A DNA stretch of 64,000 bases from Pseudoruegeria sp. HB172150 (GTDB taxonomy: Bacteria; Pseudomonadota; Alphaproteobacteria; Rhodobacterales; Rhodobacteraceae). Shown piece after piece: positions 3,613 through 63,222 of this stretch. Each line of letters starts with the position of its first letter. Position 1 is the first letter of the stretch. Made by a program: the position numbers and the translations under genes. Where the stretch lies: NCBI RefSeq assembly GCF_013184805.1, contig NZ_JAATNG010000001.1, positions 682,001 through 746,000 on the forward strand, written 5' to 3'. A model generated the notes under the pieces. It was not told the DNA's origin. It searched no databases and was given only the letters and a program-made list of their open reading frames with translations.

Positions 3613-3647
3613 TGTTTTCCTCCTTTCATTTTAATCGAGGTAAATCT

Positions 3648-3663
3648 TGCCCCAATTGAGGCA
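3648..3663. promoter_or_regulatory. Candidate Lrp-type operator between the regulator and phhA
   Basis: TGCCCCAATTGAGGCA is a 16-bp near-perfect palindrome (14 of 16 positions symmetric) centred on CAATTG, in the 121-bp divergent space between the Lrp regulator and phhA. Lrp/AsnC proteins bind A/T-centred palindromes of about this size. Its role is inferred from position only. Confidence 0.4.
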
Positions 3664-3733
3664 TTGTAGGGAGCGGATTGGCAAGTCTTTTCCAGAACAC
3701 GCGAGTAGCCTTGCGGGTGAGGAGGAGCTTTCC

Positions 3734-4528
3734 ATGCCCAAGAACACGACCTATGCGTCGAAAAAGCCTGATGCGTCCGGGCATATCCAATACACGCCTG
3801 AGGAGGATGCCGTCTGGCGCGACCTGATCGCGGCACAGCTGCCTCGTGTGGAGCGGTACATGGCGCGGCCGTATCTCGAAGGTCTGGCCGCGCTGGACCT
3901 GCCGCGGGACCGGGTGCCGCAGTGCACCGAGCTTTCGGAGACGCTGCGCGATCTGACCGGCTGGCGCGTGGAACCGGTTCCGGCACTGATCCCGTTCGGG
4001 ACTTTCTTCGGGATGCTGGCGGACCGGGCCTTTCCGGCGGCGAGTTTCATCCGGCGGCGGGAGCATTTCGACTATATCGAGGAGCCGGACATCTTTCACG
4101 AGATCTTCGGCCATGCACCGCTGCTGACCCATCCAGAGTTCGCAGCGTTCAGCCAGGCGATCGGAAAGGCAGGGCTAAAAGCGCGGAAGGAGGATCACGC
4201 GTGGCTCATCCGGCTCTACTGGTTCACCATCGAATTCGGGCTGATGCGCGAGGATGGCCGGATCAAGGGGCTGGGTTCCGGGCTGGCGTCTTCGACAGCG
4301 GAACTTGAGCACGCGACCTCGAATGTGCCGCTGAAGCGCGATTTCGATGTCGTCGACATCCTGCGCACCAGCTACCGGATCGATATCCCGCAGCCAGTTT
4401 ACTATGTCATCTCGGATCTCGAGGAGCTGTTCGCTGCTGCCGCGCGTGACCTGCTTGCCGAAGTGGCAGAGGCGCGCAGGCTGGGCGTGTTGCCGCCGCT
4501 CTATCCGGCGAAGGAGGATGCGGCCTAG
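3734..4528 (+). CDS. phhA: Phenylalanine 4-monooxygenase
   Basis: PhhA converts L-phenylalanine to L-tyrosine with O2 and a tetrahydropterin cofactor, in the cytoplasm. The 264-residue single-domain bacterial form is present. The non-haem iron facial triad is visible: His122 and His127 in DIFHEIFGHAP, and Glu167 in YWFTIEFGL. The start at 3734 (MPKNTTYASK) is fixed by a strong GGAGGAG Shine-Dalgarno; an upstream in-frame start would run through the divergent promoter. It is divergent from an Lrp-type regulator and convergent with trpA, 15 bases away. The GAGGAGGA ribosome site is complementary over 8 bases to the CCUCCUCCC loops of the nearby hairpin array; whether that matters is unknown. 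Confidence 0.93.
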   Translation: MPKNTTYASKKPDASGHIQYTPEEDAVWRDLIAAQLPRVERYMARPYLEGLAALDLPRDRVPQCTELSETLRDLTGWRVEPVPALIPFGTFFGMLADRAFPAASFIRRREHFDYIEEPDIFHEIFGHAPLLTHPEFAAFSQAIGKAGLKARKEDHAWLIRLYWFTIEFGLMREDGRIKGLGSGLASSTAELEHATSNVPLKRDFDVVDILRTSYRIDIPQPVYYVISDLEELFAAAARDLLAEVAEARRLGVLPPLYPAKEDAA

Positions 4529-4543
4529 CCGGCAGGCCGCGTC

Positions 4544-5335
4544 TCAGGCGCTGTGGGCGCCGTCGGCGAGCGATTTGACAAATGCGCAGACCTTATCCGG
4601 GCTTTCCCCGTTGCCGACACGGGCCACGATGGCCGAGCCGACGACCGAGCCGTCGGCGACGCTGGCGATGGCTGCAGCAGCTTCGGGCGTCTTGATGCCG
4701 AAACCGACGACGATCGGAAGGTCGGTCTTCGCCTTGATGCGCGCGACCTCGGGGCCGACATCGGCGGCCTGCGCTTCGGCGGAGCCGGTGATGCCGGTGA
4801 TCGAAACGTAATAGACGAAGCCGGAGGTGTTCTGCAGGACCTTGGGGAGGCGACGGTCATCGGTGGTCGGCGTGGCAAGGCGGATGAAGTTCAGGCCAGC
4901 CTTCTGTGCCGGGATACACAGCTCGTCATCTTCTTCCGGCGGCAGGTCGACGATGATTAGGCCATCTATGCCGGCCGCCTTTGCGTCGGACAGGAAGCGG
5001 TCGACGCCGCGGCTGTAGATCGGGTTGTAGTAACCCATCAGCACGATCGGCGTGCTGTCATCCTCCTTGCGGAACTCCACCACCAAATCCAGTGTCTTCT
5101 GCAGGGTCATGCCTGCGGCGAGGGCGCGCTGGCCGGCGAGCTGGATCGTCGGACCGTCCGCCATCGGGTCGGTGAAGGGCAGGCCAAGCTCGATGATGTC
5201 GACACCGGCCGCGGGCAGACCCTTTACCACATCCAGCGAGGTGGCGTAGTCCGGATCGCCGGCCATTACGTAGGCGACGAAAGCTTTCTTTCCGGCAGCC
5301 TTCAGTTCAGCGAATTTGGCGTCGATCCTGGTCAT
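4544..5335 (-). CDS. trpA: Tryptophan synthase alpha subunit
   Basis: TrpA cleaves indole-3-glycerol phosphate to indole and glyceraldehyde 3-phosphate; indole then passes to TrpB. The 263-residue TIM barrel shows the catalytic pair Glu49 in [12 protein letters not shown] and Asp60 in MADGPTIQ, and a C-terminal phosphate-binding region with [10 protein letters not shown] and [11 protein letters not shown] placed the start at 5335 ([11 protein letters not shown]), the conserved N-terminus, preceded by AGGAAGAG; a start 57 bases further upstream adds residues foreign to the family. trpB is not adjacent in this window, so the usual trpBA pairing is either broken or trpB lies elsewhere. Confidence 0.95.
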
Positions 5336-5575
5336 GTCGGTCTCTTCCTGCGGTCCGATGGCGGGTTTGGCGAATGGGCAGAGGGAAATCAATCCCCCGT
5401 GTCGTCCGGCATGTGGTTAATGCGCGTGCGCAACCGCAAATCCGCCATGAAATCTGCACCCGCAGCCAGTTGGTGCGTTAACGCCCCGTGAATTCGACGG
5501 AGGGCCGCTGGTTCCGACTCTGGCGGAGGCGCATACTGTCGGCATTTCAAGCAGGTAACGATTTTGGGTGCTGAG

Positions 5576-5959
5576 ATGTTTTATGACCAATTTGTTCGTA
5601 TCACGGCGGCTGCGCTGTTGGCCGCCGGTATCAATGGCGGTTCCGAGGCAAATGAAATGAATGCCCCGGGGCCGTCCGAAACCGAACTGCTGAGCTATTT
5701 CGTTTGCTCCGACATGGCAGAAGCCGGCCTGTTGCCGCGGGATATCGCGGCGGCCTGCAGCATAACCTATCTGAAGGTGAAGCTTAGCTTTCTGCCCGGT
5801 GTCGGGCTGGACGACTATTTAGCTATCGACGCTGCGTCGCGAGCGCAGGTCAGCCGCGCAGGCTATGATGCGTTGCGCGACTGGTACCGGCAGAACCCGG
5901 CACGGGTGGATGCGCTGAGGGAACGGGTGCGAGCGCAAAGCGTGGCCGCGGTACGGTAG
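5576..5959 (+). CDS. Small exported protein of unknown function
   Basis: A 127-residue protein that I do not recognise. It begins MFYDQFVRITAAALLAAG, a plausible short signal peptide with a possible cleavage after GGSEA. A mostly helical polar domain follows, with two cysteines (CSDMAEAG and AAACSITY) that could form a disulfide. A TTG 12 bases upstream is also possible as start; neither has a strong Shine-Dalgarno. It stands alone between divergent trpA and the convergent VOC gene. Codon use looks like the neighbours, so it is probably a real gene. Function unknown. Confidence 0.55.
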   Translation: MFYDQFVRITAAALLAAGINGGSEANEMNAPGPSETELLSYFVCSDMAEAGLLPRDIAAACSITYLKVKLSFLPGVGLDDYLAIDAASRAQVSRAGYDALRDWYRQNPARVDALRERVRAQSVAAVR

Positions 5960-5996
5960 CTGGTACAGGCGCGGCGCGAGACGCGCCGCGCCTGCC

Positions 5997-6404
5997 TTAC
6001 TTGTCGCAATTGACCATCCAGCCGACGCCAAACCTGTCGCGGCACATGCCGAAGCCCTTGGCCCAGAAGGTTTCGGCAAAATCCATCTCGACCTTGCCGC
6101 CCTCGGACAGTTTGTCGAATATTGCCTTTCCCTCTTCCACCGTTGGCCATCCGGTCTGCAGGGTGACGCCCGAGAATCCCTTGTGCGGTGACATGCCGCC
6201 CGTGTCAGAAGCGAGGATCTCCCGGTCACCCAGTTGCAGGCTGGCATGGGCTACCATCGACTTGTTCTCGTCGGTGACCCACTCGGTATCCGGCATATCG
6301 GAAAAGCGCATCAGGCTGGTGATCTCACCACCGAAGACCCCGGCGTAGAAAGTCAGCGCCTCTTCGCAATTGCCGTCGAATGTCAGGTAGGGGTTGAGTT
6401 CCAT
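5997..6404 (-). CDS. VOC family protein, PhnB-like
   Basis: This 135-residue protein belongs to the vicinal oxygen chelate fold, in the PhnB/3-demethylubiquinone-methyltransferase-like group. The diagnostic opening is MELNPYLTFDGNCEEALTFY, with FGGEITSLMRFSD and a C-terminal GMCRDRFGVGWMVNC segment. Proteins of this group are small metal-binding or degenerate members with no settled reaction. The start at 6404 follows a GGAGGA ribosome site; longer in-frame starts run into non-family sequence. It lies downstream of the hairpin array on the same strand, 120 bases past the array terminator. Confidence 0.85.
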   Translation of the reverse strand: MELNPYLTFDGNCEEALTFYAGVFGGEITSLMRFSDMPDTEWVTDENKSMVAHASLQLGDREILASDTGGMSPHKGFSGVTLQTGWPTVEEGKAIFDKLSEGGKVEMDFAETFWAKGFGMCRDRFGVGWMVNCDK

Positions 6405-6511
6405 AACGCATCCTCCATGGCGTGCGCGCATGCTTCCATGGGTGCCGGATTCGCGCAATCGCGGCCCGTGGGGCGGGCGGAGGCTTGCCACCGCGGTGGG
6501 CTGTGGTGTTC

Positions 6512-6520
6512 GGGGGGGGG
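6512..6520. repeat. G9 homopolymer tract
   Basis: Nine consecutive G on the plus strand, directly after the T tract of the array terminator as read on the minus strand. Such tracts are prone to slippage in replication and in sequencing. It lies outside any gene I call. Confidence 0.9.
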
Positions 6521-6523
6521 CAG

Positions 6524-6567
6524 AAAAAGCAACGGCGGCGCCCAGGGAGGAGGAAGGGCGCCGCCGT
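6524..6567 (-). terminator. Rho-independent terminator formed by the last array hairpin
   Basis: The final hairpin on the minus strand has a perfect 12-bp GC-rich stem (6532-6543 with 6556-6567). It is followed 4 bases later by five T residues (minus strand, 6528-6524). This gives the DUF1127/array transcript a defined 3' end. None of the other nine hairpins has a T5 tract directly after it. Confidence 0.75.
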
Positions 6568-6964
6568 CTGTATCTGCGACCGCCAGGGAGGAGGAAGGCG
6601 TCCGCAGTATCCGGTAGAGCGGCGGTGCTCAGGGAGGAGGAAGAGCACCGCCGCCTTTACCTGCAGGCACCCTAGGGAGGAGGATGGGCACCTGCGGCAT
6701 CTTTCAAAGAACGGCGGTGCCTCAGGGAGGAGGAAGAGACACCGCCGTCTTTGGTCGCTGACACCCAGGGAGGAGGAAGGGCGCCAGCGGTAAACTCAGA
6801 GCGGCGGTACCTAGGGAGGAGGTAAGGCACCGCCGCCTTTGACGCGGAAACCACAGGGAGGAGGAAGTGGTTCCCGCGGAAGAAAGGTGCGGCGACATCA
6901 GGGAGGAGGAAGATGTCGCCGCGAGTTTTCAGACAACCTAGGGAGGAGGAGAAGGCAGTCTGAA
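6532..6964 (-). ncRNA. Ten-hairpin CcsR/cuckoo-type small RNA array
   Basis: Ten imperfect hairpins follow the DUF1127 stop codon at a 40-50 base period. In minus-strand order their extents are 6928-6964, 6889-6922, 6843-6878, 6801-6836, 6756-6789, 6711-6748, 6663-6695, 6619-6654, 6575-6606 and 6532-6567. Stems are 10-13 bp and differ in sequence, but every loop reads UUCCUCCUCCCU or a near variant. Seven stems contain A.C mismatches when folded on the plus strand, and all of these become G.U wobbles on the minus strand, so the RNA is minus-sense. This matches the CcsR1-4 small RNAs of Rhodobacter sphaeroides, which lie downstream of a DUF1127 gene and expose CCUCCUCCC in their loops; related alphaproteobacterial RNAs are called cuckoo RNAs. 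The loop resembles the anti-Shine-Dalgarno of 16S rRNA. Stems alternate between two classes, suggesting five two-hairpin units. Expected to be cut from a shared transcript. Confidence 0.9.
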
Positions 6965-6975
6965 CTCAAAACTCC

Positions 6976-7191
6976 TTATTCGCCGTATGCCGCCGTGCGG
7001 GCGATTGAACGCAGCTCCGAGCGGCTAATGCCCAGGTCGCTCAGCTCCCGGTGCGACAGCTCCTGCAGCTCGCGCAGCGTCTCGTTGTAAAGACGGCGCT
7101 TGCCATAGGCGGCACGGGCGCGATCGAATTCCTGGCGCAGACGAAAGACCAGCCCGGTCTCGTATGCTTTGATGTCGTTGGTGAAAGCCAT
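6976..7191 (-). CDS. DUF1127 small protein, CcaF1-like RNA-binding candidate
   Basis: A 71-residue basic protein starting MAFTNDIKAYETGLVFRLRQ. The C-terminal DUF1127 motif reads LRELQELSHRELSDLGISRS, followed by ELRSIARTAAYGE. In Rhodobacter sphaeroides the DUF1127 protein CcaF1, encoded just before the CcsR RNAs, binds RNA and affects small-RNA maturation and turnover; the same gene order here makes that role likely. The start at 7191 is preceded by AAGGAAAG. The stop is 12 bases before the first hairpin, so gene and array should be one transcript. The 261-bp space upstream, shared with divergent mrp, has a TTGAAGCG on the minus strand (7308-7301), but I see no convincing -10 partner. Confidence 0.88.
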   Translation of the reverse strand: MAFTNDIKAYETGLVFRLRQEFDRARAAYGKRRLYNETLRELQELSHRELSDLGISRSELRSIARTAAYGE

Positions 7192-7452
7192 TTGCTTTCC
7201 TTCGTACTCGTGTTGGGTGCGGTGAACCGGCCGCTGCCGTTTGCGTTCCGCCGCTGTTGGAGCCAACATAAGCCGATGCTGCGTGTGCACAATCCCAAAG
7301 CGCTTCAATTCTGCCATGCAGCATGTGCATACGTGCCCTAGCGTAATGCTTAATATGTGACGCATGAATTTTCGGCATTCGGCGGAAGCGCTCTTGAGAT
7401 TTGCCGAATAGCTGACACGTAATGCCCAAGGTTTGGGCGGGGATGGAATGCA

Positions 7453-8526
7453 ATGTCCGTAAACATTGAAGAAATACGTCAAGTGCTGCGTAACGTCACG
7501 CTTCCAGGAGGTGGCGATCCGGTCACATCCGGCCTGGTGCGAGCGTTAACAGTAGAAGGGGGAATCGCCCGTTTCGTACTGGAGGCGGACAGCCCCGAGT
7601 CGGCAGCGGCGCTAGAGCCCGTGCGGCAGGAATGCGAGCGGAGGGTCGCCGCAATGCCGGGAATCCAAAGCGCTTCGGTTGTTCTTACCGCCCATGGAAA
7701 TGCTGCGCCGCAGCAAAATGCGCCCGACCTGAAGATCGGACGTCACCCGACCCGACAGGACGGTCCGATGAAAGTGTCTGGCGTGGACCGCATCCTTGCC
7801 ATCGCCTCCGGCAAGGGTGGCGTGGGCAAATCCACCGTCGCCTCTAACCTTGCGGTGGCGCTGGCGCGGCAGGGGCGGCGGGTGGGGCTGCTGGATGCCG
7901 ATATATATGGCCCTTCGATTCCGCGGATGATGGGTGTGTCGAAAAAACCTGCCTCACCGGATGGCAAGACCATCGAACCGCTACATGCCCATGGCGTCAC
8001 GATCATGTCGATTGGGCTGCTGGTCGATCCCGATCAGGCGGTCGTCTGGCGTGGGCCGATGCTTATGGGTGCGCTGCAGCAGATGCTGGGGCAGGTGCGC
8101 TGGGGCGAGCTGGACATTCTTATCGTCGACCTGCCGCCCGGGACGGGCGATGTTCAGCTGACATTATGCCAGCGCACCAAGCTGACCGGCGCGCTGGTAG
8201 TGTCGACGCCGCAGGATGTGGCGTTGCTGGATGCGCGAAAGGCGATCGACATGTTCGGCAAGCTGAACGCGCCGGTGCTGGGGCTGATCGAGAACATGTC
8301 GTCTTTCATCTGTCCGCATTGCGGGGAGGAGACACATATATTCGGCCATGGTGGCGTCCGGGCCGAGGCGCAGAAGATCGGCGTTCCGTTCCTGGGAGAG
8401 CTGGCGCTGGACCTTGATGTGCGGTTGGGCGGGGATGACGGTGTGCCGGTCGCGGCGGGCGAAGGGCCACTGGCCGATGCATATGCGCAGATCGCGCGTG
8501 GGCTGGTGGCGGGCGGAATGGCCTGA
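7453..8526 (+). CDS. mrp: Mrp/NBP35 family iron-sulfur cluster carrier ATPase
   Basis: This 357-residue P-loop protein (also called ApbC) is a cytoplasmic scaffold that passes Fe-S clusters to apo-enzymes. It has an N-terminal MIP18/DUF59 domain (about residues 1-85), a deviant Walker A GKGGVGKST at 120-128, IVDLPPGTGD near residues 214-223, and the cluster-binding CPHC at Cys287/Cys290. Length and layout are typical. It is divergent from the DUF1127 gene and lies upstream of the dcw leader. A GC-rich inverted repeat begins 12 bases after the stop. Confidence 0.93.
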   Translation: MSVNIEEIRQVLRNVTLPGGGDPVTSGLVRALTVEGGIARFVLEADSPESAAALEPVRQECERRVAAMPGIQSASVVLTAHGNAAPQQNAPDLKIGRHPTRQDGPMKVSGVDRILAIASGKGGVGKSTVASNLAVALARQGRRVGLLDADIYGPSIPRMMGVSKKPASPDGKTIEPLHAHGVTIMSIGLLVDPDQAVVWRGPMLMGALQQMLGQVRWGELDILIVDLPPGTGDVQLTLCQRTKLTGALVVSTPQDVALLDARKAIDMFGKLNAPVLGLIENMSSFICPHCGEETHIFGHGGVRAEAQKIGVPFLGELALDLDVRLGGDDGVPVAAGEGPLADAYAQIARGLVAGGMA

Positions 8527-8537
8527 CAAGGGCGTCC

Positions 8538-8569
8538 CGCGGTCCCGTATGGGAACGTATGGGACCGCG
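8538..8569. repeat. Perfect 9-bp inverted repeat after mrp
   Basis: CGCGGTCCC (8538-8546) and GGGACCGCG (8561-8569) are exact complements around a 14-base loop. It could end the mrp transcript, but no T tract follows, and two of the MraZ-type boxes lie in its loop and right arm. It may therefore be an operator rather than a terminator. Confidence 0.5.
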
Positions 8570-8586
8570 AATGGGAAATCGTGGGG
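8550..8586 (+). promoter_or_regulatory. MraZ-type TGGGN box array upstream of dcw
   Basis: Four TGGGN boxes lie at 8550 (TGGGA), 8560 (TGGGA), 8572 (TGGGA) and 8582 (TGGGG), with spacers of 5, 7 and 5 bases. MraZ is known to bind TGGGN repeats with 5-base spacers upstream of its own gene. A further 12-base copy of GGGAAATCGTGG (8573-8584) recurs exactly at 8699-8710, placing a weaker CGGGA/TGGAA pair there. Binding is inferred. Confidence 0.55.
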
Positions 8587-8855
8587 CCGGCGGGACACAC
8601 CTGCCGGTTTTCATGTGAATCATGCCCGAAAATCAGAGAGATTCGGTTGCGGGACTGTGAATTCCCACGGATAAGCGCGACATGCGGTGAATTTCGCCGG
8701 GAAATCGTGGAACTTTTTGAGCCCTTGAATCCGGGTATATCTGGTAATCGAACAGCCAGAGCTTACTAGATGTAGATAAAGGGCCGGTCTCTGCCCAACA
8801 TACTGTGGTTTTTATGCCCCAATTTCCGTGATTGAAGTTGATGGTCGCGTGAGAT

Positions 8856-8880
8856 TTTCATTGATTTCCATGAATTCCCA
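8856..8880 (-). promoter_or_regulatory. Second MraZ-like box set, minus orientation
   Basis: On the minus strand the segment reads TGGGA, 5 bases, TGGAA, 5 bases, TGAAA, i.e. three boxes at a 10-base period decaying from the TGGGN consensus. It sits within the mraZ leader, some 270 bases before the mraZ start. It could be part of autoregulation by MraZ; only the first box matches consensus. Confidence 0.35.
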
Positions 8881-8889
8881 TGCGATCCC

Positions 8890-9097
8890 TTTCATACGAT
8901 GAAGACGGCAAGGGGCAGCAAGACCCCGCCACAATAAAAACAAGTCAGGTTTCATACAGGCTACCGCTTTCATCGAACGAAGAGATCCGGCGCGCGGGCG
9001 AGCAGACATCCCCCCAGGTGGCGCGCGCAGCTGGACTACCCGCAAAGCGGGACGAGGGCGGCGGATTGAGCAACGGCAGCAGCTCAATCCGCCGTTT
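8890..9097 (+). ncRNA. UpsM-like leader RNA of the dcw cluster (5' end approximate)
   Basis: The 619-bp space 8527-9145 upstream of mraZ has no credible gene. It ends in a strong terminator-like hairpin about 50 bases before mraZ. In Rhodobacter sphaeroides the abundant UpsM small RNA (about 200 nt) is made from exactly this place: the 5' leader of the dcw transcript, ended by partial termination before mraZ. Position and terminator match; I cannot confirm sequence homology or the 5' end, and I found no convincing -35/-10 pair. The 5' coordinate is set only by the known length. Confidence 0.45.
9059..9097 (+). terminator. Leader terminator/attenuator before mraZ
   Basis: A perfect 13-bp stem (9059-9071 with 9082-9094) with a 10-base loop is followed by TTTCC and then TTCC. 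The T tract is short, as expected for a leaky terminator that lets some polymerase continue into mraZ. Confidence 0.7.
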
Positions 9098-53889: not shown

Positions 53890-54002
53890 CGCTCGGGCTC
53901 CCGGTTTCGCCGCGTCGTTCGTCATGCGACGCATGAGGCGGAACGGCAAGGGATTTAACGGTTGACGGTCCCCGGAGCTACGGATAATCAGCGCTCCACG
54001 TC

Positions 54003-54086
54003 GGGCGACGTGCTGCAAGGTGCGGCAGCGGACTGTAACTCCGCCGGGGAGACCCATGCCTGGTTCGATTCCAGGGTCGCCCACCA
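54003..54086 (+). tRNA. tRNA-Tyr (GTA)
   Basis: The 84-base gene has a 7-bp acceptor stem (GGGCGAC with GTCGCCC), an anticodon stem GCGGA/TCCGC around the loop CTGTAAC (anticodon GTA), a class II extra arm with GGG-GAGA-CCC, a T arm CCTGG-TTCGATT-CCAGG and an encoded 3' ACCA. The long extra arm and GTA identify tyrosine. The accessory cluster with YcaO/TfuA begins about 430 bases downstream. Confidence 0.93.
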
Positions 54087-54472
54087 TTCCCCCTCATTCC
54101 AATGACTTAGGCTGCAGGATGCAGTGGCGGGGCATTCGGTTTGCATGCCGACACTGCACCTTCCGGCCAGGAAAATTCTCTTGCAGCGGGCGGGTGCGGC
54201 GAACCTGCCTTCTTGCAGCAGGCGGGCTGATCCGGTTTCAGGGCCCCGAGGTCGGGTAGTGGTGCGGCCAGGGCGGTCGAGCGTGTCACTGTTCTGGTTG
54301 TTACAGACGCCGGGCCTTTACGGTACGGGCTGCGCGTTCCGGGGCGATCGCCAGACAGCGCATCGGGATTCGTTTGCCGACCGTTAGGTGATCGTGAAAA
54401 GTGGCGGATACGTGCGCTGTATTCGGATTGCGGCGGCGGGATGGTATTGACTGCGACTATTTCGACGCAGAG
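54087..54472. other. Intergenic between tRNA-Tyr and the YcaO cluster
   Basis: About 390 bases without a credible gene. It includes several short direct or inverted repeats around TTGCAGC (54182 and 54213) but nothing I can name. No integrase, attachment-site duplication of the tRNA 3' end, or IS remnant seen. Confidence 0.4.
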
Positions 54473-54501
54473 ACTGTAACTGCGCCAATTTCTGTTACAG
54501 T
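54473..54501. promoter_or_regulatory. Inverted repeat upstream of the metzincin-like gene
   Basis: ACTGTAAC (54473-54480) and GTTACAGT (54494-54501) are exact 8-bp complements with a 13-base spacer, ending 12 bases before the start codon. The size fits a dimeric regulator site overlapping a promoter. The cluster's own SARP-type regulator is a candidate, but such proteins usually bind direct repeats. Confidence 0.55.
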
Positions 54502-54513
54502 GATATTTCGCAG

Positions 54514-56595
54514 ATGCAAAATCACCTAAAGAATTGCATAGAAGAAAGTTCACACCCGACCGAGCTTTCTCCCGAATTGATAAGCGACCTGTCAAGTATT
54601 CGTTTTCGATGCGACAGCGCGTCGGAAATCAAGATCAGCCGAGATGATAACGTTTCCTACGATGCTCAGGTGTCTCTTCGGTTCGATGGCCTGGGGCTTT
54701 ATGTTTCGGGCGATATCTTTATTCCCGGCAAGCAGCGCAGGAACGGAATACTCCTGGGCGGGCGCGATGACTGGGAGATGTCGTTTTACGGCCGCATCAG
54801 CAGTTATCTTGATCTGGGCGGCGAAGCAGACGGAATGGTTTGTCTTATCGTTCCCTGCGCCTTGTCTTCGAATACCGGTCGGGATTCGGGGGAGCTGATC
54901 ACAAACGGTGTCCTGCAGGCGGTGTTTTCGACGACCGGCGGCAAGGGCGAGATCGTCTCCTGCCGGCTGGATACCGTGGAAGGCGCCGGATCGGAACTCT
55001 GGTGGCCGGGCGCGTCTGTCGAGATACCGGTCGATGGCGAGAAACTCGATTACTTCCGGCGCGTGCGGTTTCGCTATGTGCTCGGTCCCGGGACCGAGAA
55101 AGAAGGCGCCGGCATTCGCAGCCTGTTCGATCCCGAGTCGAAGGAAAGCATTCATTCCGCGCTGAAGCAGCATGGTATCCACGTGATCGCCGAAGAGATC
55201 ACCGATACCAAGGCATTCCACGGAGAGTTCGAATCCGCCGACGCATTCCGCGAGCTGAGCGCGCAGATGCTGATCGACGCGTATCTCAGGAAAAGCCAGG
55301 CGACGGTGCCGGAGCCGGACTGGGAACACACCATCGTCTTTGCCGGGCTGACGGATAATAACGAGAGGAATCCGGAAAGCGACGCGCCGCCCCAGGAATA
55401 CAAGAACATGTTCAGCGGCGTGTCCTACGGGTTCGACCGGCCGGTCAACCGGTTCCGCAGCAGGTTCGGATCCGTCATCAACGTGACCGAAACGACGCGG
55501 ATCACCGCTAAGTCACAGATGGGCGGTGTCAGCGATGTCACGTGGACGCTGCGCAGCGTGACCCTGCATGAAATCGGCCACCTGCTGAACCTGCCGCATT
55601 CCTGGTCACGTCACCTGGGACATGGCTTTCTGCCCCGCAATGCCGAAGCCAGCGCCAGCTGGGTGAATTACCATTCGCTTTATCCCGTCGGTCCCTTCGC
55701 GCGCGCGGTCATCAATTCCTTCGAGCACGAGGACCAGCGTCCGGCTCTCTTAACCGCGCGCCGGGAAAACTATTTCTCGAAGATGAAAGAGGGCCAGTAC
55801 GATGAAGCCGAGGACAGCTTCATCCGGCATGCGCCGCTCAACCAGATCGCCCAGGGTGGGCTGACTTTTCTCGACTCGGCGCGGCAGGCGCCGGCGCTGG
55901 TGATGCCGCAGGGCGACCGGAACAAGCCTATGGGGGATCAGCTTCAGGTCGTGACTCTCAGCGGAGGTGAATGGAAGCCGCTGGAAAAGCTCGAGCTCTG
56001 GCAATGGCACGCGTCCAGGAATAGGTCGGTCACGGAGATTCCTCCGATTCCCGCTTTCATCCGGCTGAAGGACTTTCAGGACGAGTTCCTCTGGTACAGC
56101 CTCGCGACCGGTAGCCTGCAGATCGTCATGCGGGCGGAACACGGTGAAGAAACCCAGTGGTCGCCGCCAAGAAATGTCTGTGTGCTTGACCCGATGCGCC
56201 TGCTGCCTTCGAATCCCGAATTCGCCGCAACGTCCGGCCTGCCGGAGAAGGCAGTCGTCCAGCCCGGAGCGACGTTGATGGGTTTCCCCTGGATCATGAA
56301 GGAAGATGTGAGTGCGCATTTCAACACCTTCTGGCATGGGGACCGTCCCAAGAGGCTGACGTTCCAGGTCATAGGTTACCGGGTCAGCGGCGTCGTCATG
56401 CGTTCGAACATCTTCGAGGTCGAGTATACCGAGAAGAAGGACATCGGTTCTGACTATATTGCATTCGAACAAAGTCGGACTGCCCGGGACCGAGAGTTCT
56501 TTAAAGTCCCGCCGGAGACGATCCATCTCGCGCCCCACGAAACGTTAGATACCAGTATGCAGGAGCTTCGTGGTGCGCCCATCATCCCAACCTGA
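54514..56595 (+). CDS. Metzincin-like protein of the YcaO-TfuA cluster
   Basis: A 693-residue protein with the zinc-protease motif HEIGHLLNLPH at residues 352-362 (HExxHxxxxxH, metzincin type; the usual Gly after the third position of the repeat is Asn). The N-terminal 350 residues and the C-terminal 300 are not recognised. No signal peptide or transmembrane segment is seen, so it may be cytoplasmic or leave by a non-Sec route. No clear Shine-Dalgarno; the start may be leaderless, with the inverted repeat just upstream. First of four same-strand genes ending in YcaO-TfuA. It could process the modified product, be the substrate, or act on its own. Confidence 0.75.
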   Translation: MQNHLKNCIEESSHPTELSPELISDLSSIRFRCDSASEIKISRDDNVSYDAQVSLRFDGLGLYVSGDIFIPGKQRRNGILLGGRDDWEMSFYGRISSYLDLGGEADGMVCLIVPCALSSNTGRDSGELITNGVLQAVFSTTGGKGEIVSCRLDTVEGAGSELWWPGASVEIPVDGEKLDYFRRVRFRYVLGPGTEKEGAGIRSLFDPESKESIHSALKQHGIHVIAEEITDTKAFHGEFESADAFRELSAQMLIDAYLRKSQATVPEPDWEHTIVFAGLTDNNERNPESDAPPQEYKNMFSGVSYGFDRPVNRFRSRFGSVINVTETTRITAKSQMGGVSDVTWTLRSVTLHEIGHLLNLPHSWSRHLGHGFLPRNAEASASWVNYHSLYPVGPFARAVINSFEHEDQRPALLTARRENYFSKMKEGQYDEAEDSFIRHAPLNQIAQGGLTFLDSARQAPALVMPQGDRNKPMGDQLQVVTLSGGEWKPLEKLELWQWHASRNRSVTEIPPIPAFIRLKDFQDEFLWYSLATGSLQIVMRAEHGEETQWSPPRNVCVLDPMRLLPSNPEFAATSGLPEKAVVQPGATLMGFPWIMKEDVSAHFNTFWHGDRPKRLTFQVIGYRVSGVVMRSNIFEVEYTEKKDIGSDYIAFEQSRTARDREFFKVPPETIHLAPHETLDTSMQELRGAPIIPT

Positions 56596-56616
56596 CCTGC
56601 GAACACAGGAGTGACC

Positions 56617-57198
56617 ATGGCTTTCCCTAATCCCATCAAGCCGCTCATAGCGGCCTATGCCAACCTGAATGGCACGCTTTTCGCGATGTCGGTCGATCGG
56701 AGCCAGTCGCAGAACGCGCTGAAATATCTTGGCCGGGCGACGGCGGACGGTTCCTCGAACGATACCGACGAAGACTGGCACGAGACGAGCCTGCAATTTC
56801 TGAACGCCAACTCGCCGGACACCGGCGATTACAGTGTCGTCTCCGGCAATCCCGCCACGAACAACTCCGCAGGTGGCGAACTGCTGCAATCCCCGTGGTA
56901 CGCGATCTTCGAGCATGGGAGCGACGCCGGTGCCGGCGGCGCCGGCGATCTATGGGTCGGTCGTTTCTTTCAGACTGACGATGCGGGTGGCGTCGCGGGC
57001 CTGGACCCTGCACCGGCGGAGGGCAAGGTGTTTGTCTTTGAACGGAACCAGGCGACCGAGGTGGCTGACGGGCTGCCGCACCTGATCGCACTGGACGCCA
57101 GGCGCGCCGTGCTGATCGAGACCTACGGCGATGCCGGTGCACCCGGAACATTCGGCGCCGAACACGGCGGCAGCGGGTCGTTGCGCAACGAGTGGTAA
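56617..57198 (+). CDS. 193-residue protein of unknown function in the YcaO operon
   Basis: I do not recognise this protein. It begins MAFPNPIKPLIAAYANLNGT, has no cysteine, is acidic, and is rich in Gly, Ala and Asn with a Gly-rich tail (FGAEHGGSGSLRNEW). An AGGAG ribosome site 5 bases before the ATG fixes the start. It lies 21 bases after the metzincin gene and 6 before YcaO. No RiPP leader type (Nif11, NHLP) is recognisable. As TfuA-YcaO in methanogens modify a full-size enzyme, this could be a protein substrate; a lack of Cys argues against azoline formation from Cys. Inference only. Confidence 0.7.
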   Translation: MAFPNPIKPLIAAYANLNGTLFAMSVDRSQSQNALKYLGRATADGSSNDTDEDWHETSLQFLNANSPDTGDYSVVSGNPATNNSAGGELLQSPWYAIFEHGSDAGAGGAGDLWVGRFFQTDDAGGVAGLDPAPAEGKVFVFERNQATEVADGLPHLIALDARRAVLIETYGDAGAPGTFGAEHGGSGSLRNEW

Positions 57199-57204
57199 TA
57201 CGGA

Positions 57205-58443
57205 ATGACCAGGGTAGCTCCCCAACTTATGGTTGGGGACCGTCCCAAGATCTATTGGGACGGAACACACAGGGCTGCGGTGCCCGAGGAAACCTGGGAC
57301 CGCATCCAGCCCCTGCTTTCCCGGGCAGGGGTCACGCGCATCGGCGAGCTGACCTCGCTTGATCGCATCGGGCTGCCGGTCGCGCAGGCAATACGCCCCA
57401 TGTCACGGGCGCTGACCACCAGCCAGGGTAAGGGCACAACCCCGGTTACCGCCCGGGTCTCGGCCGGGATGGAGGCGCTGGAAAAGTGGCATGCCGAAAT
57501 CCTGGAAAAGCCCGACTTGAAGGGCACGTCCGATCATCTGTCCGGATCCAACCAGGTTGTTGATCTGGAACGCGCGACATTGACCGCGAGCGGCCCCGCG
57601 GAAGCTATGGCCGGGACCGAGTTATCCTGGGTCGAGGGCGTGTCGCTGTGGAGCGGCGATCCGATCCTCGTTCCATGGGATTACGTCCACCTCGATACGA
57701 CCGCACCATGCGAGTCGTCGCTGCTGCCGCGCGGATCGAACGGCCTTGCCTCGGGCAATACGCGGCCCGAAGCGATCTTTGCCGGGCTGTGCGAAGTGAT
57801 CGAGCGCGACGCGGTGGCGGATTTCCGCGCCCTCGACGCGCGGGCGCGGGCCAGACGGCGTGTGGGTGCCAACGCGATTTCCCGCACCCGTTTCGGCGAC
57901 CTGACGGACATGATCGTCAGGGCTGGCTTTACCCTGGACGTCTGGAATGCCCAGAACGACCTTGGCGTGCCGGTGTTCGTCGCGACGATCACGCCCAGGC
58001 CGGGCACCGACGCGCCGGTGGCAGGGTTGTCGGCAGGCGGATCGGGGTGCCACCTGGATCCCGAGATCGCCCTTGTTCGTGCCGTCCTGGAAGCGGTGCA
58101 GAGCCGGCTGACCCGTATTTCCGGCGCGCGGGACGATCTGGCGTCGATTCACTTCGGGCAGGCACGGAACAACGAGATCGGCGCATTCCTTGCACAGTTC
58201 TTCGAGGAACCGGTGTTCGAGGAGCCTATCGAGAGTGCCGCGCTTGGTGACTGCGCCGGCGAAGACATTCATGTGCTGGCGGGGCGGCTGAACGCCGCCG
58301 GATGCGACGAACCCGTGGTCGTCGACCTCAGCCTGCCGGACACCGACATCCATGTCGTTCGCGTGGTCACGCCCGACCTGGGGATCGTCGGGCCGAACGG
58401 CAGCGCGCGGCGCGGCGCCCGGCATACCTGGCGGCTCCAATGA
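57205..58443 (+). CDS. YcaO-domain ATP-dependent backbone-modifying enzyme
   Basis: A 412-residue YcaO protein. YcaO enzymes use ATP to activate a peptide backbone amide, making azolines, amidines or, with TfuA, thioamides. The three ATP/Mg blocks are visible: SAGMEALEKWHAE (residues 86-98), SGNTRPEAIFAGLCEVIERD (183-202) and GSGCHLDPEIALVRAVLEAV (279-298), each with the expected Glu residues. The C-terminus lacks the PxPxP tail of azoline-forming members. It overlaps tfuA by 4 bases, so the two are coupled. No E1-like cyclodehydratase partner is present, which favours thioamide chemistry. Confidence 0.92.
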   Translation: MTRVAPQLMVGDRPKIYWDGTHRAAVPEETWDRIQPLLSRAGVTRIGELTSLDRIGLPVAQAIRPMSRALTTSQGKGTTPVTARVSAGMEALEKWHAEILEKPDLKGTSDHLSGSNQVVDLERATLTASGPAEAMAGTELSWVEGVSLWSGDPILVPWDYVHLDTTAPCESSLLPRGSNGLASGNTRPEAIFAGLCEVIERDAVADFRALDARARARRRVGANAISRTRFGDLTDMIVRAGFTLDVWNAQNDLGVPVFVATITPRPGTDAPVAGLSAGGSGCHLDPEIALVRAVLEAVQSRLTRISGARDDLASIHFGQARNNEIGAFLAQFFEEPVFEEPIESAALGDCAGEDIHVLAGRLNAAGCDEPVVVDLSLPDTDIHVVRVVTPDLGIVGPNGSARRGARHTWRLQ

Positions 58444-59198
58444 CGATCCGGCGGTACGTGTTTGCCGGATCCAGCCTGTCGCCGCCCGACAAGGAGGCGT
58501 TTCCGGAAATCGAGTTCCTGCCGCCGGTCGGCGAGGCCGACATCCTGCGGCTGCTCGATGGCCAGACAGCGGTCATCGGCATTATCGACGGTTATTTCGG
58601 CGACCGGCGCGCCGTCACTCACAAGGAGATCGTGCTGGCGATGGCGCTTGGCGTCACCGTCTTCGGGGCCGCATCGATCGGCGCTCTGCGCGCGGTCGAG
58701 TTGCAGCAATACGGAATGATCGGCGTCGGGGAGGTGTTCGAATGCTACCAGTCCGGGCGGCTGAACGACGATGGCGACGTCGCCCTGCTTCATGGCCCGG
58801 CAGAGATGAACTACCAGGCGCTGACCATTCCCCTGGTCGAGGTGGCGGCGACCCTGAAAGCCCTGGAGGCGCGTGACCGCATCAGCCACCAGACCGCCAG
58901 ATCGCTGTTTCAATGCGCAGGGCGGGTTCATTTCGCCGAACGGACGTGGGGCGCGGTCACCGCCAGCCATTCCAGCGACAGTCGATATGCGTTGCGCCTG
59001 ACCGAAGAGCTGGAAGCGGCCCACGTGGAACGCAAGCGGCTGGACGCGCTGGCGATGCTGAATCAGATGCGGACCGCCGGCGGTCTGGCTGCGGATCGGC
59101 GGCCCGATCTGCCGCCGTTCACACCCTATTTCCTGGAAACGCTGCAGCGAGCCGGGTTCGCGGCGGACGATTTCATACCACGAAACCAGCTTTCGTGA
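58440..59198 (+). CDS. TfuA-like core-domain protein
   Basis: A 252-residue protein with the TfuA core: VFGAASIGALRAVELQQYGM, GVGEVFECYQSGRLNDDGDVALLHGP (residues about 75-120). TfuA proteins accompany YcaO in thioamide formation, including McrA thioglycine in methanogens, and are thought to help deliver or activate the sulfur source. Named after trifolitoxin biosynthesis in Rhizobium. Last gene of the plus-strand operon. Its 3' end overlaps the convergent regulator by 26 bases. Confidence 0.9.
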   Translation: MTIRRYVFAGSSLSPPDKEAFPEIEFLPPVGEADILRLLDGQTAVIGIIDGYFGDRRAVTHKEIVLAMALGVTVFGAASIGALRAVELQQYGMIGVGEVFECYQSGRLNDDGDVALLHGPAEMNYQALTIPLVEVAATLKALEARDRISHQTARSLFQCAGRVHFAERTWGAVTASHSSDSRYALRLTEELEAAHVERKRLDALAMLNQMRTAGGLAADRRPDLPPFTPYFLETLQRAGFAADDFIPRNQLS

Positions 59199-61155
59199 GG
59201 CCCTCGACAAGGTTGTCGTGGTGGTCCTGACGGCGCAGGCTGTAATTTCCCAGAAACCACTGAATCGCGACCTTCGGCGAATAGGGCTCGTCGCCACGCC
59301 AGGATTCGGAGAGTAGCTGTTCCGCCCGTTTCACCTCGTGGCTGGCCTCTGCGAGACGGCCGAGCATGGCCAGCGTCGCGCCGCGCAGGATCAGCGGGTG
59401 GATCGGGTTGCGGATCTCGCCGATGTTCAGGAACTGCAGCGCCTTCTCGTATTTGCGCTGGAAGTAATACAGCTCTCCGTAGTCGGTCTGCATGAAATCC
59501 AGGTCGTTGACGAGGCGGCTTCTGGCCAGGTCGTAATAGTGCTCGGCCTTTTCGGTGTTCCCGAGGTAGAGATAGCCGGTGCCGACCGCGTTCAGCCGGT
59601 AAGCCTCGTAAGGGCGCAGGGACTCTGTCTTCTGCAGAAAACGTTCCGCCTGATCGAATTCTCCGGCCCGAATGAAGCACCATGCCATGGACAGGTTCGC
59701 ATTCCCGTAGCGCCCGTCGAGAACCAGGGCGCGGCGAGCGAGCTGGAGCGCCCGCGCCTGCCGCTTTTCACGCTCCAGGCCGATTGCCGTGTTGCGCCGC
59801 GACGAGTTGTAGCTGCCGATCAGGTAGGTGTAGGGCGGCAGGAAGGACGGCTCCAGCTCGATCGCGCGTTCCAGATAGGGTTCGGCGAGGTTGTAATAGC
59901 CGGGGTCCGTCGCGCCGAGGATGTTGATCTTGGCGTGGACGTAGTTCTGATATGCGCTCCATTCCTCTTCCGGAACCAGATCCAGGCGCTGCTGTTCCGC
60001 GCGCTCGATGGCCGGAAGTGTCGCGAAGGCGATGTCCTCGACCGCGTCCAGTACGGTCTGGGACGAGTCCATGTTGACCTGCCGGGGCGGCACATCGGCA
60101 ATCTGCTTTCCGGTATCCACTTCGGTGATCGCCGTCGTCAGTTCGAAGCCATCCGACAGCTTCATGGCGGAAGCCGTGACGATATAGGCCGCGCGCGCTT
60201 CGGCGGCGGCGGCGCGCGCCTCGCCCAGATCCAGCGACAGCTTGATGCTGGTTGCGCCGGAGAGCGTTTCGATCTCGCGCATGGCACTGTATCGCGCGAT
60301 CAGGCGAGAGGTGACCTGGCCGAGAAGCTCTGCCTCACCGGTCCGGTCGGACACCGCGTGCGCCACAACCATCACAAGCGGCGGGCGCTGCTGCCCGCGC
60401 GGAGGCTGGGGCTGGAGCGCCGGAGCGCCGGCCGCGGAGCGTCCGTTCTTTGATCTGAGAAGGGTCTCGCGGGTCTGGTCGCTGACCGGGAACCCAAGGT
60501 CTGCCAGGGCGCTCTCGACTGTGCGGTACACGCGCAGCGCCTTCGACACGTCCCCCTGGGTCGCGTGCAGTTCCATCGCGGTGCGGGCGGCGCGTTCGTT
60601 CTCGGGTTCCATGCGCAGGACAGCATGTGCCGCTTCCAACCGGCTTTCCACGCTGGCCTTGTCATCCGCCATCACCCGCTCGGCCTCGCGCACGCGCTGG
60701 CTGAGCGTGCTGCGACGTGCGGATTCGAGCCAGCTGTCGAATTCAGGGGTTATGCCGCCAAGGTCTGTCAGAAGGTCTTCGGTGTTGGAGAACTGCAGGC
60801 TGGCGGATTCATCCCAAAGGTCGAAATCCACCGAGTTCGGTTCGACGGCAATCGAAAGCCGGTCAATGGAAAAGACCGAGTCGACCAGCGGTCCCATGGA
60901 CTTGCGGATGTCGTGAATCGACTGCCGCAGCGAGGATTGCGCCTGCTCGGATTCACGGGTTGGCCACATCAGGTTCAAGAGGTCGTTTCTTCTTACCGCC
61001 CGTCGGTGGTTCATCAGGCAATAGGCGAGAATTCCCGTTGCCTTGCGCGCCTTCGGCAGTAGCGACACGCCTTCGACCGATCGAACGCGGAATGCCCCGG
61101 TCAATGAAACCTTGATGACAGGCTGTGAGCGCACACCCTGGGCGTTCACATTCAT
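59173..61155 (-). CDS. SARP/BTAD-type regulator with TPR domain
   Basis: A 660-residue protein with an OmpR-like winged helix (LTGAFRVRSVEGVSLLPKARKATGILAYCL...LLNLMWPTRESEQAQSSLRQ, residues about 15-75), a bacterial transcriptional activator domain, a middle region like the TolB/adenylate-cyclase-associated N-domain (VAHAVSDRTGEAELL), and TPR repeats to the C-terminus. The AGAGGAAT before the ATG at 61155 decides the start; a longer frame exists upstream. SARP-type proteins often switch on natural-product clusters, so control of the convergent YcaO operon is plausible. The 26-base convergent overlap with tfuA is notable. Confidence 0.82.
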   Translation of the reverse strand: MNVNAQGVRSQPVIKVSLTGAFRVRSVEGVSLLPKARKATGILAYCLMNHRRAVRRNDLLNLMWPTRESEQAQSSLRQSIHDIRKSMGPLVDSVFSIDRLSIAVEPNSVDFDLWDESASLQFSNTEDLLTDLGGITPEFDSWLESARRSTLSQRVREAERVMADDKASVESRLEAAHAVLRMEPENERAARTAMELHATQGDVSKALRVYRTVESALADLGFPVSDQTRETLLRSKNGRSAAGAPALQPQPPRGQQRPPLVMVVAHAVSDRTGEAELLGQVTSRLIARYSAMREIETLSGATSIKLSLDLGEARAAAAEARAAYIVTASAMKLSDGFELTTAITEVDTGKQIADVPPRQVNMDSSQTVLDAVEDIAFATLPAIERAEQQRLDLVPEEEWSAYQNYVHAKINILGATDPGYYNLAEPYLERAIELEPSFLPPYTYLIGSYNSSRRNTAIGLEREKRQARALQLARRALVLDGRYGNANLSMAWCFIRAGEFDQAERFLQKTESLRPYEAYRLNAVGTGYLYLGNTEKAEHYYDLARSRLVNDLDFMQTDYGELYYFQRKYEKALQFLNIGEIRNPIHPLILRGATLAMLGRLAEASHEVKRAEQLLSESWRGDEPYSPKVAIQWFLGNYSLRRQDHHDNLVEGLTKAGFVV

Positions 61156-62178
61156 ATTCCTCTGACCACCCCTGTTTAGTTTTGTACCCAAATCTACGGG
61201 AACATTTCGCCGATGCAATGATTTCGAAATCAAGCTGCCAAATAGTGCCGTTGTCTTTGCTCAATAAATGGCCCGGTCCCGTGACATTGTATTGAGGCGT
61301 CTGTCTGCCGCTCTGTATCGCGGATTCAGGGGGCTGGTCGAGTGGTGATGACGAGGATTCCGGAATCCTCTGACGGTTTTTCCTGAGTGGGCAAGCCGCG
61401 GTCAGCCGGCGGACAGGGGCGGCAAAATCCGCCTAATACGCTAATTTCATGCACTTTTCACCAATGGTTAACGGCCAACTCACGCCCTGATCACGCTTGT
61501 CGTCCATAGTGAATGCATACAATGACGGAGGAATGCGATGGGCGGGAAGCCCGCTTCGCGACCCTCCCGACACCGAGGAATTTGGAATGCTGATCAATGG
61601 TCAAAGCCGGGCACTTACACCGGCGACGTTGTGCTTGCGCGCTGGCGATCGGGCCGATGCCCCGCCGGCAAAGGCGGGTGAAACCTGTTGAGCCTCTATC
61701 CGGGCCGCGGAGCAGTTTACGGGGTGGACAGGCTGCCTCGGTCCCGCGGTCCGGCGTGATTTTTACATATTGGTTTTCCGGGGGGCGGGGAGCCATTTTA
61801 AAATACATTTGAACCACCGATGGATTCGGCGGTCCATTGGAGAAGCAATTTTTGCTGCCGGGCGCAGGAGTGGTTAGGCAGCCCCTTGCCAGGTGCTCAT
61901 GTTTCCGGCGTTGTTTTCAACGATCTCTCCGCCCCCCACTTTTCCTGCCCGGTGTGGCAGGCGGTCAGTTCCGGCTGCCGTGCCCGGCACCGCTTCCGTC
62001 CCTGCCCAAGAAATCCTGACATCGGCGACGGCGTTTCGTCACAAAAGCGCAACCTCCCTGCCGCTTGCCGGTCATCCGGACGCGCCATGGTCGCATCGTT
62101 CCTTTTCTTTGCCGGTCAATTGGTTAAAGGTGCCGGCGAGGGAGGGGGCATCGTTGGCGGCGGCAAGGAGCCAGTAGC
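61156..62178. other. 1-kb intergenic region upstream of the regulator
   Basis: No gene I can support. A GAGGATTC-CG-GAATCCTC palindrome is at 61353-61370. A short open frame from ATG 61538 to the stop at 61679-61681 (47 codons, product start MGGKPASRPSRHRGIWNADQ) has a GGAGGA ribosome site 5 bases upstream. Its codon use is less GC3-biased than the neighbours and an overlapping frame is also open, so it is only a candidate. Poor GC3 bias across the region suggests non-coding or decayed sequence. Confidence 0.45.
61353..61370. promoter_or_regulatory. 18-bp palindrome upstream of the SARP-type gene
   Basis: GAGGATTCCGGAATCCTC is a perfect 18-bp palindrome, about 200 bases before the regulator start. 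A GGTTTTT tract follows on the plus strand, so a terminator reading is also possible, though no plus-strand gene precedes it. Two GANTC sites lie inside. Confidence 0.45.
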
Positions 62179-63222
62179 GTGAACGACACCTCAAAGACAA
62201 CGGCAGAACGCGGCCCGCTGATGATCGACCTTGCGCTGCAGGGCGGCGGCTCTCACGGCGCTTTCACCTGGGGTGTTCTGGACCGGATGCTCGAGGTCGG
62301 CTGGATAGATATCGAAGGGATTTCCGGCACTTCCGCGGGCGCGATGAACGCGGCCGTCCTTGCACATGGCATCGCCACCGGCGGCAAGGAAGGCGCACGC
62401 GCCGCGCTCAGGGATTTCTGGCGGCGGGTGTCGCGCGCGGCGACCTTCAGCCCGTTTCAGCGCAGCCCGATGGACCGCCTGCTGGGGCGCTGGACGCTGG
62501 ATTATTCGCCCGCCTATGTGACCGCCGACCTGATGGCGCGGATCGTGTCGCCCTATGCACTGGGCATGACCGATCACAACCCGCTCAAGACCATCCTGGA
62601 CGACATGCTGGATTTCGAGGCGATCGCCGACGGCCCGGTCAAGCTGTTCATCACCGCGACCAATGTGCGGACGGGGCGCGGGCACGTGTTCCGAAAGCAC
62701 GAGATCACCGCGGACGTGCTTCTGGCCTCGGCCTGCCTGCCGACGCTTTACCGCGCGGTGGAGATCTGCGGGGAGGCCTATTGGGACGGCGGCTTTGCCG
62801 GGAACCCGACGATCACGCCGCTGGTCAACGAATGCGAGGCGCGGGACGTGGTGCTGGTGCAGATCAACCCGGTGGACCGGCCGGGGCTGCCGACCGACGC
62901 CCGCGACATCCAGAGCCGGATCAACGAGGTGTCCTTCAACGCGACGCTGCTGAAGGAACTGCGGATGATGGCCATCCTGCGCAACGTGGTGGATGCCGGG
63001 TCGGGCGAAGGCAAGCTGTGGTCCGAGATGCGGATGCACAGGATCTCCACCGACCTGATGGTGGAACTGGGCGCCTCTTCGAAGCTGAACGCGGAATGGG
63101 CCTTCCTCGACATGCTGTTCGAGGAAGGACGGCGCGCGGTCACCGCCTTCGGTGAAAAGCACCGGGACGATATCGGGGTGAATTCCACCCTCGATCTGGA
63201 AGACTACATCGCGGAGTGCTGA
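62179..63222 (+). CDS. Patatin-like phospholipase family protein
   Basis: A 347-residue patatin-fold hydrolase. It has the oxyanion loop LQGGGSHGAFTWGVLD, the nucleophile elbow GTSAG (Ser in ISGTSAGAMNA) and the catalytic Asp in YWDGGFAGNP, forming a Ser-Asp dyad. It probably hydrolyses a lipid acyl ester. The start is GTG at 62179 after AAGGAG. Two bases separate it from the GntP gene, so they are one operon. In relatives this pair neighbours a 3-hydroxybutyrate dehydrogenase. Confidence 0.9.
   Translation: MNDTSKTTAERGPLMIDLALQGGGSHGAFTWGVLDRMLEVGWIDIEGISGTSAGAMNAAVLAHGIATGGKEGARAALRDFWRRVSRAATFSPFQRSPMDRLLGRWTLDYSPAYVTADLMARIVSPYALGMTDHNPLKTILDDMLDFEAIADGPVKLFITATNVRTGRGHVFRKHEITADVLLASACLPTLYRAVEICGEAYWDGGFAGNPTITPLVNECEARDVVLVQINPVDRPGLPTDARDIQSRINEVSFNATLLKELRMMAILRNVVDAGSGEGKLWSEMRMHRISTDLMVELGASSKLNAEWAFLDMLFEEGRRAVTAFGEKHRDDIGVNSTLDLEDYIAEC

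Follow-up and report, generated by a model that had tools for sequence, protein, structure and literature searches.

A YcaO–TfuA operon of Pseudoruegeria sp. HB172150 with a metzincin-like peptidase and a large candidate precursor protein

A 64,000-nucleotide stretch of the Pseudoruegeria sp. HB172150 genome (contig NZ_JAATNG010000001.1, positions 682,001 to 746,000; hereafter the window) carries four genes on the + strand that we read as a single operon, encoding a metzincin-like zinc peptidase candidate (METZ), a 193-residue protein with zero cysteines (X), YcaO and TfuA. Our analysis suggests, with a probability of roughly 55%, that this operon is a cluster of the thioamidated type of ribosomally synthesized and post-translationally modified peptide (RiPP) with an unusual precursor, X, which would be modified in its tail and cut by METZ. 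X is most likely the precursor inside the operon, and a sulfur-modified peptide derived from its tail is the operon's probable product.

An earlier reading made from the letters alone (the sequence-only reading) had noted YcaO and TfuA coupled by a 4-base overlap, a 693-residue protein with HEIGHLLNLPH and a 193-residue cysteine-free protein, and had seen no obvious precursor. The three observations are borne out, with Pfam confirming YcaO and TfuA. The absence of an obvious precursor holds for short precursors and not for X, since the 193-residue protein is precursor-like once its relatives are compared.

Results

Nine loci share the METZ–X–YcaO–TfuA layout

The METZ–X–YcaO–TfuA layout together with a BTAD/TPR regulator, which we call class A, is rare yet conserved and was found at nine loci, one of them broken (L034). 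A gene of 152–200 residues lies between METZ and YcaO at all eight intact loci (8/9 overall), and a homologue of the regulator is present at 8/8 other class A loci, split in two frames in L034. That locus (2300–9000) holds a decaying class A operon, in which METZ has stops, the YcaO and TfuA frames are open, and a gene judged transposase-like by eye separates METZ from the tail of X. L034 was excluded from the X and METZ alignments, and L037 from A3 and A4.

To analyze co-occurrence, we used 390 genomes of the order and sorted all TfuA loci outside our own genome by blast and by repeat score within 6.5 kb of TfuA. TfuA is present in 40/390 genomes, and the 39 non-own loci comprise 5 with METZ, 26 with a different HExxH peptidase, 8 with neither and 0 with both. 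The METZ profile matched eight genomes, six strongly (own, G257, G308, G326, G409 and G434, with internal stops in the METZ of G308) and two by weak local matches (G178 and G418). All six strong METZ genomes, from six genera, are TfuA-positive and give the six best TfuA matches; G178 and G418 are not among the TfuA-positive genomes. Under genome independence this overlap has a chance of 8e-7, a figure that overstates the case because the genomes are related. A profile of seven X proteins, window included, with at most eight first-look candidates scored per genome, matched 5/390 genomes, all of them METZ genomes; the X of G257, which is outside the profile, was found at the expected spot with E 1.4e-5, and the other four have places in the profile. 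The co-occurrence of the metzincin, the 193-residue gene and YcaO–TfuA, for which the sequence-only reading had proposed a survey, is thus positive.

Patterns from the METZ alignment were then searched against one genome each of 84,980 species and gave seven loci. Three had been found before, with identical X (L033, Yoonia sediminilitoris DSM 29955; L035, Histidinibacterium aquaticum; L036, Rhodobacteraceae IMCC 34051), and three were new and have METZ, YcaO, TfuA and the regulator (L053, uncultured Rhodobacteraceae; L054, a Shimia metagenome-assembled genome (MAG); L058, a Geminicoccaceae MAG). No YcaO or TfuA was detected by tblastn at the seventh, L059, or at the weak METZ-profile loci L106–L109 (G767, G684, G597 and G641). 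The class A family was reached only with alignments of relatives: P0001 as a single query matched only our own genome among 101 and nothing in genome contigs or plasmids, and plasmid searches with METZ (P0007) and with X were empty.

X is the most likely precursor in the operon

The sequence-only reading had left three options, namely that a large protein is the substrate, that the metzincin serves to mature a product whose gene lies elsewhere, or that a small frame at 61538 is the precursor. Among open reading frames (ORFs) of 25–130 residues at window positions 53901–62200, compared with the eight class A loci, two reached E ≤ 1e-3 and both overlie YcaO or TfuA; a separate conserved small precursor, which the sequence-only reading had named as a refuting result, was looked for in these loci and not found. 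The best tblastn matches there of the 47-residue frame at 61538 cover 11 and 15 residues (E 0.36 and 0.62), so that this candidate has no convincing counterpart and was set aside. The option of a large substrate comes closest, although the substrate is likely X, through its C-terminal tail, and not the metzincin. As for the remaining option, a maturation role for METZ is likely, while its substrate is probably encoded by the adjacent gene.

The X tails were tested by the self-match of the last 25 residues against 20,000 shuffles. A clear repeat of period six ends X of L033 (GDAADFGDAADFGDAADFGDAADFGDAADSDD; 0 shuffles as good) and L037 (GNSADYGDSADYGSSADFGG; 1 shuffle), and a marginal one ends X of L054 (GGATSAVDASSAVDGGN; 385), L035 (GDATGNASAADFGNAADAGN; 841) and L053 (GTSARDYGAARDFDN; 1499). 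No significant repeat is present at the ends of L036 (AGTDGGAASENYGNGGI), the window protein (GDAGAPGTFGAEHGGSGSLRNEW) and L058 (DQDVLSNPTDAACVEL). The Yoonia tail (L033) consists of four GDAADF units and a near-copy, with an 18-base tandem of 4.7 copies in the DNA. Cys, Ser and Thr are all absent from the unit, and ring (azoline) formation would therefore have no side-chain acceptor there. In the window, Tandem Repeats Finder reported two short arrays (9- and 8-base units), neither of them in the X tail.

Family membership of X was assessed by leave-one-out profiles with the tails removed, against 885 decoys and with L058 absent from the training sets. Five of seven relatives (L033, L035, L036, L037 and L054) were recovered with E 6e-11 to 2e-7, above 885/885 decoys. 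The window X aligns nearly end to end with the X of L053, with the tails aligned (score 66, reached by 0/2000 shuffles). This bridge to L053, the position of the gene and the profile search make it likely that the window X belongs to the X family. Neither X nor its relatives had Pfam or NCBIfam matches above noise (DUF2909 at E 0.29 and AllH at E 0.03, under cut-off); in the PDB the X profile had no match and P0001 had one, at E 0.48.

METZ is a likely maturation protease

The METZ motif keeps the three histidines and the glutamate of the metzincin motif HExxHxxGxxH/D, and HExxHLLNLxH is found in 8/8 intact METZ proteins (consensus HE[ILF][GT]HLLNL[PL]H). Twenty residues past the motif lies a Met-turn-like [ST][WF][MVT][NA]Y, with Met in five of the eight, Thr in two and Val in the window protein. 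No Pfam or NCBIfam model matched METZ above its cut-off, and the zincin matches are sub-threshold: Peptidase_M10 for the window protein (E 0.0034, 17.7 bits; cut-off 24) and, below the model cut-off, archaemetzincin for its relative P0008 (E 0.0021). A PDB search with the METZ profile gave no match. The stand-alone METZ relatives of L068, L069, L106 and L107 have Met at the Met-turn place. METZ thus resembles a branch recruited from a broader metzincin family, and its role is likely that of a maturation protease.

The stand-alone metzincin-like proteins at L068 (6997–9390), L106 (6829–9069) and L107 (255–2717) carry HEMGHxFNLAHSW followed by [ST]FM[NS]Y, and have Pro-rich N-terminal segments.

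YcaO and TfuA resemble thioamide-forming enzymes

By sequence, the nearest solved relative of YcaO is MJ1094 (6pe3; E 4.6e-27), which we take to be a thioamide-type enzyme; TruD, LynD and MusD rank behind it (5e-15 to 1e-12). The best NCBIfam matches of YcaO and TfuA are the McrA-thioamidation models TIGR03266 and NF033432, with high scores of 216.9 and 177.6 bits that are both below the respective cut-offs of 365 and 235.2 bits. In an alignment of 43 rows, where any stop within a tblastn segment was treated as an unspecified residue, YcaO residues E90, E93, E197, E200, E296, Q299 and R301 are invariant (43/43), the glutamates being presumably catalytic or ATP-binding. TfuA S79, in GAASIGALRA, is likewise invariant (43/43). 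Known cases of YcaO with TfuA involve sulfide delivery and thioamide formation, as far as the parts of the sources consulted go (PMC5589413, PMC8120280).

Gene layout and genomic surroundings of the operon

The operon and its neighbours are listed in Table 1. The spacers are 21 bases between METZ and X and 6 bases between X and YcaO, and an alternative GTG start of X at 56611 would give 195 residues. The regulator gene converges on the operon, and its 3' end overlaps the end of TfuA. The genome contains one TfuA match and one YcaO match, and no second X was found in it.

Table 1. Features of the operon and its surroundings (window positions)
Feature	Position	Strand	Description
tRNA-Tyr	54003..54086		operon begins ~430 bases downstream
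METZ	54514..56595	+	693 aa; candidate zinc peptidase resembling metzincins; by eye, no sign of a signal peptide
METZ active-site motif HEIGHLLNLPH	55567..55599	+	residues 352-362
X	56617..57198	+	193 aa from ATG; candidate precursor (large leader part at the N-terminus, core at the C-terminus)
X tail, last 25 residues TYGDAGAPGTFGAEHGGSGSLRNEW	57121..57195	+	hexad repeats in some relatives' tails
YcaO	57205..58443	+	412 aa; PF02624 E 1.2e-67
TfuA	58440..59198	+	252 aa; PF07812 E 4.2e-41
BTAD/TPR transcriptional regulator	59173..61155	-	660 aa; longer TTG form to 61233

The nearby tRNA gene raised the question of an integrative element, and this reading is unsupported, as the tRNA 3' end is single-copy in the genome. 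In same-genus genomes, RlmB is present in 4/4 and a patatin relative of 43–46% in 3/4, the two lying ~1 Mb apart in G004; P0001 is unmatched in all four.

A sister layout pairs YcaO and TfuA with a different peptidase

A second arrangement, class B, combines YcaO and TfuA with a gluzincin-like HExxH peptidase of ~430 residues and a repeat-tailed protein of ~165–310 residues (L038–L049, L051, L070–L077 and L079–L081). Its tails carry 5- or 6-residue repeats such as SGAKV, SGARV and SGGKAY, and it accounts for 24/39 non-own TfuA loci, so that it is commoner in the order than the METZ layout; the other 2 of the 26 loci with a different peptidase lack a strongly repeated tail protein. The class B peptidase reads as a thermolysin-type gluzincin from its HExxH followed by FHESAAD, with sub-threshold Pfam matches. 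Against the METZ profile it reached a probability of 2.3% over 34 columns, away from HExxH, and X did not align with the leaders of the class B partners (hhalign E 0.54). The partner proteins of R. leguminosarum pRL11, where YcaO and TfuA are annotated, and of S. meliloti pSymB, where YcaO is annotated, have tails that by eye are non-repeating. Tails without repeats are therefore found in class B as well, and the window tail is less odd in that light.

In a YcaO tree with author-assigned class labels, a branch (99/96) separates the nine METZ loci and two repeat-less gluzincin loci (L052 and L087) from the rest, and the 24 gluzincin loci with repeats form one group (97/95). Class A is not a clean group in this tree: two changes are needed, and L052 and L087 join L058 on long branches, which leave the inner order of the METZ side unsure. 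Stops were entered as undefined residues (L038 YcaO), and L083 was counted among the NHLP-type loci solely on account of its methyltransferase.

Other arrangements were also seen. At L099 (5998–8312; R. etli p42c) and L100 (4998–7349; Rhizobium sp. NLR16a p5), the gluzincin lies together with an SRSGG-repeat protein and a regulator of the adenylate cyclase type. L050 (14427–15407) encodes a 326-residue NHLP-type protein with 16 [AG]RR[VIT] units ~4 kb past a YcaO–TfuA–methyltransferase group, and L078 has a repeat region resembling it. A Polymorphobacter plasmid (L110, 5407–7684) carries a fused YcaO–TfuA preceded by a 117-residue protein with a Gly/Asn-rich tail; one BTAD regulator is annotated there and a second looks BTAD-like by eye, and no HExxH occurs in the four proteins read.

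Discussion

We propose a mechanistic model for the operon that starts from the observed gene order, its conservation, the co-occurrence of METZ and X, and the repeated tails of some relatives. We infer that X is the substrate: the N-terminal part of the protein would act as a large leader and its C-terminal tail as the core. With sulfide supplied through TfuA, YcaO would turn at least one backbone amide in the tail into a thioamide. METZ would then cut X, the cut and its timing being likewise part of the proposal, and thereby free the tail or, where the tail is repeated, short thioamidated peptides; release would fall naturally to a peptidase encoded in the operon itself. The BTAD/TPR protein may control expression.

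Several results weigh against this model. The link of the window X to its family is suggestive when measured by the tail-less profile, where 10/885 decoys and 25/500 shuffles score as well; hhalign gave E 0.075, with E 0.33–0.54 in the four other comparisons made, and 6/7 pairwise tests, those with the six relatives other than L053, were not significant. L053 itself is borderline in the leave-one-out test (E 0.34, 2 decoys as good, 0/500 shuffles), and L058 was not recovered by the profile, 67 decoys being as good. The window tail shows no significant repeat (12,892/20,000 shuffles reach its score), and none is significant in the tails of L036, L058 and the L034 fragment. In METZ, Asn replaces the usual Gly of the metzincin motif in 8/8 proteins, window included, and the window SWVNY has Val where the Met-turn would have Met. 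The X and METZ models made with AlphaFold2, with mean predicted local distance difference test (pLDDT) scores of 39 and 40, are too poor for use. A Ser–Lys pair has been described for TfuA in the part of the source consulted (PMC13185837), and no Lys is among the TfuA positions conserved in at least 41/43 rows. The operon has no transporter gene. At L099 and L100, no YcaO or TfuA is present in the 11–13 kb read around the peptidase–repeat pair; a repeated tail and a peptidase alone therefore do not imply a thioamide.

The precursor might instead be encoded elsewhere, with X as an accessory partner such as a scaffold or recognition protein. X is indeed large for a precursor, the window tail is without repeat, and the single YcaO of the genome could work in trans on peptides encoded far away. 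However, the differing repeat units at the end of the same gene in relatives look like cores rather than parts of a scaffold, and the class A loci share no small ORF at E ≤ 1e-3 apart from the two atop YcaO or TfuA, and we consider an accessory role unlikely. Tandem short units also fit multi-copy products better than the single inhibitory site expected if X were a thioamidated, pro-region-like inhibitor whose tail sulfur binds the zinc of METZ, forming an intracellular protease switch with no free peptide. The pairing of METZ with X, the second peptidase type paired with its own tail protein at 24/39 loci, the peptidase–tail pair in two plasmids with no YcaO–TfuA nearby and the missing transporter would all suit such a switch, which we regard as quite unlikely.

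The chemistry and the target can also be read differently. An azoline or amidine in place of a thioamide is improbable: Ser and Thr are present in the window tail, and YcaO enzymes make several modifications according to the part of PMC13063428 consulted, but TfuA is adjacent, the GDAADF unit offers no Cys, Ser or Thr, and MJ1094 ranks ahead of TruD, LynD and MusD among the PDB matches of YcaO. That METZ itself is thioamidated, as McrA is in methanogens, seems very improbable. METZ is larger than the other partners and has invariant residues near its active site, YcaO and TfuA match the McrA-thioamidation models, and a folded protein has a precedent as substrate in uL16, which E. coli YcaO thioamidates (PMC13063428, same part). 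Both model scores, however, fall below their cut-offs, stand-alone METZ relatives exist without YcaO–TfuA, and 26/39 other TfuA loci have a different peptidase, none having both.

Going further, and with the odds somewhat against it, the thioamidated-precursor model might define a distinct class of thioamidated RiPPs, with a leader of well over 100 residues, one to five short C-terminal cores thioamidated by YcaO–TfuA, and a dedicated cytosolic metzincin that releases them. The same plan would then be realized twice within a single order, by zinc peptidases without detectable similarity to each other, so that peptidase and modified tail would be the functional unit. If many TfuA–YcaO precursors are proteins of 150–310 residues whose tail holds the core, a search limited to short peptides can overlook them. 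The Yoonia repeats are a direct target for mass spectrometry, and the paired peptidases suggest enzymes that release thioamidated peptides.

The METZ–X–YcaO–TfuA layout is undescribed in the titles and abstract openings found, a search outside of which lay supplements and most subscription journals. A 2021 study with broad mining of such clusters states, in the part consulted, that all known TfuA–YcaO RiPPs were actinobacterial although 70% of the predicted clusters were in Proteobacteria, and names Ruegeria among genera with Nif11-like precursors; that text is without the words 'repeat', 'protease' and 'Rhodobacter', and similar clusters may be listed in its supplements (PMC8120280). Neither TfuA nor a metzincin is mentioned in the text seen of a review on RiPP leader proteases (PMC10885120).

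Among known systems, NHLP/proteusin-type precursors have a large leader and a C-terminal core, as proposed for X, and no NHLP match was found for the window X or the X of four relatives. The McrA thioglycine pair of methanogens is the same enzyme pair, YcaO–TfuA; the operon differs in scoring under both equivalog cut-offs and in having dedicated adjacent genes for X and METZ. The class B gluzincin clusters of Rhodobacterales and Rhizobiaceae, for which no published name was found in the literature searched, share with the operon YcaO, TfuA, an HExxH peptidase and a special-tailed protein. The thiovarsolin cluster (var) of Streptomyces varsoviensis likewise has YcaO and TfuA, and its precursor has imperfect core repeats; precursors of that family range from non-repeating to five repeats (PMC6511847, in the part consulted, here and below). 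It differs in being actinobacterial and in having an amidinotransferase, an ATP-grasp ligase, a heme-oxygenase-like protein and an MFS transporter (PMC6511847); by Pfam, none of the first three is among the five proteins of the operon and regulator. The thiovarsolin cluster has been noted to lack a specific protease (PMC6511847), whereas the operon described here has a metzincin-like gene, and ~130–170 residues precede the tail of its candidate precursor.

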